Origin: Mycolicibacterium insubricum
GTDB lineage: Bacteria > Actinomycetota > Actinomycetes > Mycobacteriales > Mycobacteriaceae
Reading direction: 5' to 3'
NCBI RefSeq assembly: GCF_010731615.1
Contig: NZ_AP022618.1
Location: 248,001-312,000 of the forward strand
DNA: 64,000 nt
How positions within the stretch are numbered: position 1 is the first letter of the stretch; each line of letters starts with the position of its first letter. Positions 59,775 to 61,782 of this stretch are shown in pieces. Both the position numbers and the translations under genes were made by a program. Under the pieces are notes generated by a model, which ran no database searches, had not been told where the DNA came from, and worked only from the letters and a program-made list of their open reading frames with translations.

Positions 59775-59849
59775 GATGTCCCACGATAGCCGCGGCCGTC
59801 CGCTCCCGCCGACGGCGGCGTTTGAGCTGCACGCACCGACAGGAGTAGA

Positions 59850-59900
59850 GTGCCCGATGTGCAGCGTGTGCTCCTCCTCGGGCGCCGCGACGGGGTCTGA
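59850..59900 (+). CDS. candidate leuA leader peptide
   Basis: A 16-codon frame GTG...TGA, with AGGAG at 59841-59845. It encodes VPDVQRVLLLGRRDGV, with three consecutive leucine codons (CTC CTC CTC, 59871-59879). It ends 76 bp before the leuA start. Leu-rich leader peptides before leuA are known from actinobacterial attenuators, so this is probably the leucine sensor. It is too short to identify by homology. Confidence 0.65.
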   Translation: MPDVQRVLLLGRRDGV

Positions 59901-59944
59901 TCCAGACTGGCCTCCCGTCGCGGGTCTTCGCGATGTGCCGGTCT
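59895..59944 (+). promoter_or_regulatory. competing hairpins in the leuA 5' region (attenuator candidate)
   Basis: GTCTG (59895-59899) can pair with CAGAC (59903-59907), covering the leader stop. AGACTGG (59904-59910), which shares bases with that hairpin, can instead pair with CCGGTCT (59938-59944, one G-T pair). The two cannot form together, so the ribosome position on the leader could choose between them. No T-run follows, so the effect may be on Rho-dependent ending or on leuA translation. Confidence 0.5.
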
Positions 59945-59976
59945 GAAATCCCATCGAGACCTTCGGAGCACCCATC

Positions 59977-61782
59977 ATGACTACCCCATCCTCCAGCGAC
60001 GCCTATTCGTCGGTGCGCACCGTCAACACCCCCGCCGGCCCGCGCAATCCCGGGCAACCCTCCTGGAACACCCAGCGCAGTTCCTCGATGCCGGTCAACC
60101 GGTACCGCAGCTTCGCCGACGAGGTCGAGCAGATCTCGCTGCCCGATCGCACCTGGCCCGACGTCGTCATCGACCACGCCCCGGCCTGGTGCGCGGTGGA
60201 TCTGCGCGACGGCAACCAGGCCCTGATCGACCCGATGAGCCCCGAGCGCAAGCGGCGGATGTTCGACCTGCTGGTGCAGATGGGCTTCAAGGAGATCGAG
60301 GTCGGGTTCCCGTCGGCGTCCCAGACCGACTACGACTTCGTCCGTTCGATCATCACCGACGGCGCCATCCCCGACGACGTCACCATCCAGGTGCTGGTGC
60401 AGTGCCGCCCCGACCTGATCAAGCGCACCTACGAGGCGTGCGCGGGCGCGCCGAAGGTGATCGTGCACTTCTACAACTCGACCTCGATCCTGCAGCGGCG
60501 GGTGGTCTTCCGCGCCGACCGAGAAGCCGTCAAGAAGATCGCCACCGACGGCGCGAAGATGTGCCTGGCCGAAGCGGTCAAACACCCCGAGACCGAATGG
60601 CGCTACGAGTACTCCCCGGAGTCCTACACCGGCACCGAGCTGGAGTACGCCAAGGACGTGTGCGACGCGGTCGCCGACGTCATCGCACCGACGCCGGACT
60701 GGCCGCTGATCGTCAACCTGCCGGCCACGGTCGAGATGGCCACCCCGAACGTCTACGCCGACTCGATCGAATGGATGAGCCGCAACCTGGCGCGGCGTGA
60801 CTCGATCATCTTGAGCCTGCACCCGCACAACGACCGCGGCACCGCGGTGGCCGCCGCCGAACTGGGTTTCCAGGCCGGCGCCGACCGGATCGAGGGCTGC
60901 CTGTTCGGCAACGGCGAGCGGACCGGCAACGTGTGCCTGGTGACGCTGGGGCTGAACATGTTCTCCCGCGGGGTGGATCCGCAGATCGACTTCTCCAACA
61001 TCGACGAGATCCGCCGCACCGTGGAGTACTGCAACCAGCTGGCCGTGCCCGAGCGGCACCCCTACGGCGGTGACCTGGTGTACACGGCGTTCTCCGGCAG
61101 CCACCAGGACGCCATCAACAAGGGCCTGGACCAGATGAAGGTCGACGCCGACGCGGCCGACGCGGACGTCGAGGACATTCTGTGGCAGGTGCCCTACCTG
61201 CCGATCGACCCCAAGGACGTCGGCCGGACCTACGAGGCCGTCATCCGGGTGAACTCGCAGTCCGGCAAGGGCGGGGTGGCCTACATCATGAAGGCCGACC
61301 GCGGTTTGGCCCTGCCGCGCCGGCTGCAGATCGAGTTCTCCCAGGCCATCCAGCGGATCACCGACGGCGAGGGCGGCGAGATCGCACCCAAGGAGATGTG
61401 GGACGCCTTCCAGCAGGAGTACCTGGCGCCGGTCACCCCGCTGGAGCGGATCCGGCAGAAGGTGGATGCGGCCGAGGAGGACGGCGGCACCGACACCATC
61501 ACCGCGATCGTCAAGATCGACGGCGAGGAGCGCGAGATCGTCGGCGCCGGCAACGGTCCGCTGGCGGCGTTCTGCGACGCACTGGGTGCGGTCGGCTTCG
61601 ACGTGAACGTGCTGGACTACTCCGAGCACGCCATGTCCGCGGGCGAGGAGGCCCAGGCCGCGGCATATGTCGAGGCGTCCATCGGCGGCAAGACGGTGTG
61701 GGGCGTGGGCATCGCGCCGTCGATCACGACGGCGTCCCTGCGGGCCGTTGTGTCCGCGGTGAATCGCGCAGCGCGAGCGTAG
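59977..61782 (+). CDS. leuA: 2-isopropylmalate synthase
   Basis: 601-residue LeuA, condensing acetyl-CoA with 2-ketoisovalerate, the first step of leucine synthesis. The HMGL-like barrel shows [13 protein letters not shown] near residue 74 and [12 protein letters not shown] near 282 (metal site), and [10 protein letters not shown]. The C-terminal regulatory domain (about 440-600) binds leucine. The 57-bp repeats of M. tuberculosis leuA are not seen. Start ATG 59977 with GGAG 8 nt before. The stop TAG lies in a repeated GCGAGCGTAGCGAG motif. Confidence 0.96.

Follow-up and report, generated by a model that had tools for sequence, protein, structure and literature searches.

Does the ribosome that translates a short leucine-rich leader determine how much LeuA is made, or does the conserved RNA upstream of leuA act in some other way? 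The question is raised by the window (the whole 64-kb stretch of Mycolicibacterium insubricum DNA analysed here), in which a leader frame with three consecutive leucine codons and several alternative RNA helices precede the gene for 2-isopropylmalate synthase. Matched by text description rather than base by base, this element can be identified with the LEU element that Seliverstov et al. described in 2005 (PMC1262725), in a survey that covers mycobacteria. As far as the sections of that article devoted to it go, the LEU element lies before leuA and has a leader with a leucine run, a conserved pseudoknot, an alternative hairpin, and a base stem between the leucine codons and the Shine–Dalgarno sequence; all four sequence features (leader with leucine run, pseudoknot, alternative hairpin, and base stem) are present in the window. 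The same sections judge translation of the leader unlikely and propose a regulatory protein instead (PMC1262725). The leaderless start, the codon bias, and the forms with valine codons or upstream of leuB that are reported below go beyond the description given there. The element in the window fits this known kind well, and interest centres on its sister elements.

The features of the locus are the following:

59846–59851, + strand: -10 hexamer TAGAGT of the putative leader promoter, separated by 7 nt from the leader start GTG 59859 (from the sequence)
59859–59900, + strand: leader frame, probably leaderless, 13 codons plus stop, MQRVLLLGRRDGV* (from the sequence; leader with leucine run in 267 of 268 loci)
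59868–59874, + strand: 5' strand of base stem P1 (anti-Shine–Dalgarno), GUGCUCC (from the sequence and P1 pairing tests)
59871–59879, + strand: putative regulatory codons CTC CTC CTC, in frame (from the sequence, the spacing to helix A, and the use of CTC/CTT instead of CTG)
59885–59894, + strand: 5' strand of helix A (in 230 sequences, paired in 99.6 per cent of cells and changed on both sides at 7 of 10 pairs)
59895–59899, + strand: 5' strand of hairpin B, overlapping the leader stop codon (83.5 per cent of cells paired; 64.2 per cent for the first 3 pairs in A1, a set of 68 chosen sequences spread over families)
59903–59907, + strand: 3' strand of hairpin B, common to helix C (alignment covariation)
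59903–59911, + strand: 5' strand of pseudoknot helix C (paired in 82.6 per cent of cells and changed on both sides at 7 of 9 pairs; 61.3 per cent for 7 pairs in A1)
59914–59923, + strand: 3' strand of helix A, a helix of 10 bp (alignment covariation)
59937–59945, + strand: 3' strand of pseudoknot helix C (alignment covariation)
59965–59971, + strand: 3' strand of base stem P1, GGAGCAC, which includes the leuA Shine–Dalgarno sequence GGAG at 59965–59968 (227 of 252 loci have a Shine–Dalgarno-like 4-mer ahead of leuA)
59977–61782, + strand: leuA, 2-isopropylmalate synthase, 601 amino acids (TIGR00970, 945.5 bits against a cut-off of 697.4; domains HMGL-like, IPMS_D2, and LeuA_dimer)

Beyond leuA, a 63-bp unit is repeated in tandem at positions 62446–62629 (2.7 copies, 99 per cent matches), and this array contains 15-bp units.

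A conserved leucine leader upstream of leuA

A short frame with three consecutive in-frame leucine codons is unremarkable by chance in 64 kb, as the window contains one and 20 mononucleotide shuffles gave a mean of 2.0 (range 0–6); conservation therefore decides. We searched for LeuA at three taxonomic levels, with overlapping draws, and obtained matches in 59 of 60 genomes from the genus, 120 of 120 from the order, and 156 of 158 from the class. From the genomes with LeuA, a subset of 268 upstream regions was picked for spread (53 + 15 + 120, plus 80 named contigs, with some genomes represented twice). These regions yielded a leader in 267 cases and a leuA start in 266, and removal of identical cores left 252 loci, of which the 230 with the leuA start 40–95 nt after helix A were aligned. 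The P1 test used the 247 loci with a recognisable Shine–Dalgarno sequence, 229 of them also within the distance limit. Families served as group labels, with named records pooled into three groups from their titles and taxonomy.

The helix A pattern lies upstream of leuA in all 268 loci (235 exact matches, 32 with at most one mismatch per strand, and 1 with at most two), and a leader with a leucine run lies there in 267. In every family group sampled within one bacterial class, the LEU element precedes leuA. Judged by this comparison of sequences, conservation raises the leucine leader above chance. Its geometry is also constant: the end of the leucine run is spaced 5 nt from helix A in 249 of the 267 leaders, and the leader stop codon starts 3 nt past the 5' strand of helix A in 181 loci (across all leaders, the stops are TGA in 177, TAG in 60, and TAA in 30).

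Codon use in the leucine run is inverted. CTC, CTT, and CTG account for 46.4, 39.3, and 13.2 per cent of the 796 leucine codons of the run, respectively, against 16.3, 1.6, and 76.6 per cent of the 1729 leucine codons in LeuA coding sequences from 148 loci; CTC and CTT combined make up 85.7 per cent of the former and 17.9 per cent of the latter. Conserved short frames are not necessarily regulatory, and the leader might simply set a constant level of expression, or its small peptide might itself act, with no sensing of leucine. The rise of CTT from 1.6 per cent in LeuA to 39.3 per cent in the leaders is difficult to explain in this way, as is the divergence of the leader peptides between families everywhere outside the leucine run, and we consider such a role improbable.

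The preliminary description had correctly noted CTC CTC CTC in frame (found at 59871–59879) and the end of the frame 76 bp before leuA (stop TGA at 59898–59900, leuA ATG at 59977), but its start, GTG 59850 in a frame of 16 codons with AGGAG as the ribosome site, is probably wrong. GTG 59850 overlaps the TAGAGT hexamer at 59846–59851, and a Shine–Dalgarno-like 4-mer stands before the leader start in 2 of the 252 loci, compared with 227 for leuA and 9–25 in four control windows. On these grounds, the AGGAG site and the upstream start were discarded, and both look coincidental in the light of the related loci. The comparison of related leuA upstream regions that had been suggested as a check retains the leucine run (267 of 268) and reveals covarying stems. 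A start codon 9 nt further 5', as in the 16-codon frame, is present in 39 of the 102 loci checked. In 203 of the 252 distinct related loci, a TANNNT box lies 6–8 nt ahead of the leader start (0–4 in 14 control windows), although the count of 203 is somewhat inflated because start assignment favoured starts with such a box. Taken together, the box and the scarcity of Shine–Dalgarno-like 4-mers make it most likely that the leader is leaderless, and for this organism we infer a frame of 13 codons from GTG 59859. A scan with the sigma-70 consensus found no promoter for the leader.

RNA helices and their covariation

The 5' strand of helix C lies within the loop closed by helix A, whereas the 3' strand of C falls outside this loop, and the two helices thus make up an H-type pseudoknot. 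Hairpin B and helix C are mutually exclusive, because 59903–59907 is common to both. Both stems had been predicted previously: the first was found at 59895–59899/59903–59907, and its competitor, given as 59904–59944, at 59903–59911/59937–59945. The preliminary description overlooked helix A (59885–59894/59914–59923) and P1 (59868–59874/59965–59971), the latter a stem of 7 bp in the window that joins the leucine codons to the leuA Shine–Dalgarno sequence. Its central idea of a leucine leader with exclusive stems before leuA is thus borne out by comparison, in a form that probably has a different start and no ribosome site of its own, and that has two further elements, the helix A pseudoknot and P1.

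We searched positions 58000–62500 against Rfam, T-boxes and riboswitches included, and obtained only two matches (E 2 and 3.7), both far below the gathering score. Seven sister loci (see below) also had no gathering-score match, and on these searches a known Rfam family was rejected as the identity of the element. An intrinsic terminator was rejected as well: 59600–60300 contains no terminator-like site and no T-run, in agreement with the absence of a T-run noted beforehand.

In a structure-blind MAFFT alignment of the 230 sequences, with slides of 1–3 columns as the control, standard pairs make up 99.6 per cent of helix A (7 of 10 pairs changed on both sides; best slide 69.6 per cent), 82.6 per cent of helix C (7 of 9; 47.3 per cent), 83.5 per cent of hairpin B (4 of 5; 65.4 per cent), and 64.0 per cent of P1 (5 of 7; 51.2 per cent). 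When each of the 40 groups is represented by one sequence, A, C, B, and P1 are 99, 79, 75, and 55 per cent paired, with best slides of 49–52 per cent (49 per cent for slid versions of P1). Columns 59896, 59906, and 59942, which are common to B and C, co-vary (TAT in 119, CGC in 31, CAT in 29, and CGT in 12 of the 230 sequences). In A1, pairing reaches 99.6 per cent for A, 61.3 per cent for C (7 pairs), 64.2 per cent for B (3 pairs), and 60.4 per cent for P1, percentages that 0 of 500 shuffles attained either for A, C, and P1 jointly or for B alone. Further standard pair types in the whole structure of A1 were not above shuffles (246 of 500), and neither were pairs changed on both sides in hairpin B (267 of 500), to which the -1 slide came close.

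Additionally, we compared, independently of any alignment, how well each strand pairs with its own partner and with partners from other groups. Own pairing exceeded foreign pairing in 39 of 41 groups for A, 32 for P1 (p = 2e-4), 28 for C (p = 0.014), and 27 for B (p = 0.03), against 21, 19, and 21 groups for three unrelated window pairs used as controls. Because some C windows were empty, neither the mean energies nor the Wilcoxon values carry meaning for C or two of the three negative controls, and ranks and sign tests alone were used here. A version of P1 that overlaps both the leucine codons and the Shine–Dalgarno sequence has at least 4 bp in 244 of 247 loci and prefers its own partner in 28 of 40 groups (p = 0.008). 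Because the strands of C and P1 are uniform, a best-complement permutation test gave weak results for these two helices (group-balanced ranks 0.547 and 0.650). As judged from these alignments and pairings, covariation supports every helix, P1 least, and the P1 signal is owed in part to the resemblance of CUC codons to an anti-Shine–Dalgarno sequence.

In the minimum-energy nested fold of the window, helix C is present, A and P1 as defined are absent, and 59891–59901 pairs with 59953–59965 in place of A or P1. The ensemble probabilities are 0.56 for P1, 0.07 for A, 0.07 for B, and 0.92 for C, where the values for A and C have to be read in the knowledge that nested folding is unable to hold the two together. 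The strand at 59953–59965, just before and into the Shine–Dalgarno sequence, is a further possible competitor for 59891–59901.

Translational attenuation as the favoured mechanism

We propose, with a probability of roughly 0.6, that the LEU element is a ribosome-mediated translational attenuator of leuA in which the leucine codons are both the sensor and the anti-Shine–Dalgarno sequence. Transcription would start at or adjoining GTG 59859, and a ribosome would load directly on the leaderless leader. With leucyl-tRNA plentiful, the ribosome would pass the CUC codons and depart at UGA 59898–59900; once it is gone, GUGCUCC (59868–59874) would pair with GGAGCAC (59965–59971), the leuA Shine–Dalgarno sequence would be masked, and less LeuA would be made. 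With leucyl-tRNA scarce, the ribosome would stall on the CUC codons and occupy the anti-Shine–Dalgarno sequence, and the leuA ribosome site would be exposed. Helix A and pseudoknot helix C, exchanging with hairpin B, probably juxtapose the two strands of P1, and this exchange among A, C, and B probably makes the switch depend on where the leader ribosome stands. If the proposal is true, the design is a compact one, in which the sensing codons themselves lock the Shine–Dalgarno sequence.

Accessibility of the Shine–Dalgarno sequence was modelled by folding with a masked ribosome. Over 229 loci, mean modelled access is 0.35 with the ribosome on the leucine codons, 0.17 with it at the stop, and 0.15 without a ribosome. 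The leucine position gives higher access than the stop in 190 of the 229 loci and in 26 of 40 groups (the other 14 have no higher access on the leucine codons) and higher access than free RNA in 187 loci. Specifically, in the window, the ensemble probability of P1 is 0.56 in free RNA, 0 with the ribosome on the leucine codons, and 0.92 with the ribosome at the stop, and modelled access is 0.17 in free RNA, 0.44, 0.31, 0.27, and 0.10 at four successive leucine-codon positions, and 0.03 at the stop. As summarized in the relevant section of PMC1262725, mutations in the leader of Streptomyces coelicolor leuA had some effect, unlike classical attenuation (Craster et al. 1999), and this result counts against translational attenuation. 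The weakness of P1, the minimum-energy nested fold lacking A and P1, the uneven access at the four leucine-codon positions of the window, and the 14 groups without higher access weigh against it too, as does the Val form (see below), whose codons pair with a stretch other than the ribosome site. In its favour stand the leucine leader at constant spacing, the covariation, the preference of P1 for its own partner, the mean modelled access, the inverted codon use, the terminator looked for and not found, and the exchange of codons in the sister elements.

Leucine could instead act on the RNA level, through Rho-dependent transcription attenuation in which the leader ribosome governs the access of Rho between the leader and leuA, with or without a translational effect. 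Effects of translation and of Rho are frequently coupled, which would be compatible with such a mechanism, and so would the fact that an intrinsic terminator was not found. Rho has also been proposed for mycobacterial cys leaders, in the part of PMC1262725 that deals with them. However, Rho alone leaves both the stem between the leucine codons and the Shine–Dalgarno sequence and its preference for its own partner unexplained, and we regard this mechanism as unlikely. The output had originally been suggested to be either Rho-dependent or translational, a pair of options that fits the absent terminator and the leucine-codon stem.

Comparison with known leaders

The window shares a leader with putative regulatory codons and mutually exclusive stems with classical (trp-type) transcription attenuators, but their intrinsic terminator with a U-run was not found. 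In translational attenuators of the erm type, leader translation exposes a hidden Shine–Dalgarno sequence and a drug causes the stall. The proposed mechanism is similar in that a Shine–Dalgarno sequence would be freed via the leader, and different in that a shortage of charged tRNA would cause the stall. Leaderless Cys-codon leaders of mycobacteria were reportedly described by Canestrari et al. in 2020. The mycobacterial Cys-codon leaders treated in PMC4633059 are likewise leaderless and rich in the amino acid that is the product, and the corresponding passage of PMC13236596 reports that Mycobacterium smegmatis controls cys genes by translation attenuation. As characterized in the 2005 survey, mycobacterial cys leaders have no conserved hairpins (PMC1262725), unlike the LEU element with its conserved pseudoknot.

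Leucine-rich leaders (leuL) also precede leuA in Streptomyces lividans (PMC8079986) and Corynebacterium glutamicum (PMC4046766, PMC8709942). Unlike the mechanism favoured here, they are described, in the sections of these articles that concern leuL, as transcriptional attenuators. According to the RNA-seq section of PMC8079986, the S. lividans leuA leader is leaderless and without a typical Rho-independent terminator. A gain in 2-isopropylmalate synthase activity in C. glutamicum after replacement of leuL and the promoter, as outlined in PMC8709942, was set aside, the promoter being a confounder. Short leaders with branched-chain codons are also present before the branched-chain biosynthesis genes of Mycobacterium tuberculosis (ilvB1; PMC13236596) and Corynebacterium (the ilvB-II motif; PMC10272879); as presented in these articles, they end in an intrinsic terminator, and none was found at leuA in the window.

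Ribosome profiling of Mycobacterium abscessus detected a protected leader at MAB_3424c, labelled '(leuA)' (PMC4974804), whereas the leuA gene of this species is MAB_0337c according to PMC11057210. Because the locus tags conflict, the protected leader may belong to another gene, and we do not count it as proof. A change in tRNA-Leu(GAG) alongside a change in leuA, whose role is left open in the source (PMC11057210), was not used as evidence.

Related elements upstream of other genes

When searched with a covariance model of the leuA element (R1), this genome shows a single copy (E 1e-14), and 38 of 40 class genomes show a match; of the remaining two, G179 has no LeuA match and G196 a weak LeuA match only (E 1.6e-9). 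Under stricter filters, R1 matched 14 of 149 phylum genomes, 13 from its own class and one (G409) outside it, a count that gives no proof of absence outside the class because the draw left out some class genomes that match under laxer filters. In G409, the LEU element lies before leuA (L280).

Second copies of leuA have their own LEU-like element at L284 (G077) and L338 (G205). Elements with a leucine run also precede leuA of another family, TIGR00973, at L328 (G176) and L326 (G180); both genomes match the LeuA of the window only weakly. In this sample, the element appears to follow function rather than gene family.

In 5 of the 40 class genomes (G177, G178, G186, G194, and G207; L285, L286, L335, L336, and L337), a LEU-like element precedes leuB, which was identified with NCBIfam in four genomes and by eye in G186. 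The leaders have mixed Val/Ile/Leu runs (V-L-I-L, I-F-V-L, V-R-I-L, L-I-L, and L-V-I-L). The leuB start, where measured, lies roughly 100–270 nt past the element, a gap in which another short frame may lie.

The scaffold also precedes, in 21 of 21 loci (L290–L310), a stand-alone protein of ~166 amino acids that resembles the regulatory domain of LeuA (PF08502 at 20.4 bits, under the cut-off of 24.9; C-terminal part of TIGR00970) and that the sources annotate either as homocitrate synthase or as alpha-isopropylmalate synthase regulatory domain-containing protein. Of 150 order genomes searched, 21 contain the protein, namely 16 of the 18 same-genus genomes and 5 of the 7 other same-family genomes listed; in this search, the genome studied here was without it, and this genome also has no Val form of the element. 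The leader codons of the Val form are GTA GTA in 19 loci; of the other two loci, one has GTA GTT and one a single GTA. With a model built from the 21 loci (R2), 35 of 40 same-genus genomes show a strong Val-type match (E below 1e-15), and in a 40-genome class sample such matches are confined to this family; the model also independently matches the LEU element of the window (E 8e-9). In several loci, the valine codons are complementary to a stretch just past helix A (GTAGTAGC with GCTACTAC), but the Val-form base stem pairs better with its own than with a foreign partner in only 14 of 21 loci. Because the partner stretch is not a ribosome site, the output of the Val form may differ.

These sister elements bear on the 2005 proposal, in which a regulatory protein would bind the LEU element and the codons of the leader would be incidental. 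The pseudoknot sequence is indeed highly conserved, and the pertinent section of PMC1262725 offers ML1624 as a phylogenetic-profile candidate and cites the mutant data in its favour. A mere binding site would, however, account neither for a leader with putative regulatory codons and inverted codon use in 267 of 268 loci nor for sister elements in which the same scaffold, ahead of other genes, carries Val or Val/Ile/Leu codons instead, and we find a protein-binding role very unlikely. The sister copies with Val or mixed codons suggest that the switch reads its own codons: retention of the scaffold with codons exchanged along with the gene favours codon reading over protein binding and makes the mechanism question of 2005 directly testable.

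Beyond translational attenuation at leuA, we see about even odds that the LEU element is a member of a wider Actinomycetes class of codon-programmed pseudoknot attenuators. In such a class, one scaffold would stand before several pathway genes with its codons fitted to each (Leu for leuA, also of the other family; GTA Val for the stand-alone LeuA-regulatory-domain protein; Val/Ile/Leu for leuB), and the codon run would be both sensor and pairing partner. Full-text searches of an open literature collection turned up no mention of the Val form or of the leuB form, but these searches were blind to subscription papers and supplements, so that this result is no proof of novelty; the mycobacterial leader lists from ribosome profiling (PMC4633059, PMC4974804, PMC9094748) may include some of them. 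One same-genus genome, G002, has two strong Val-type matches, at C1:1213933-1214050 and 964347-964468.
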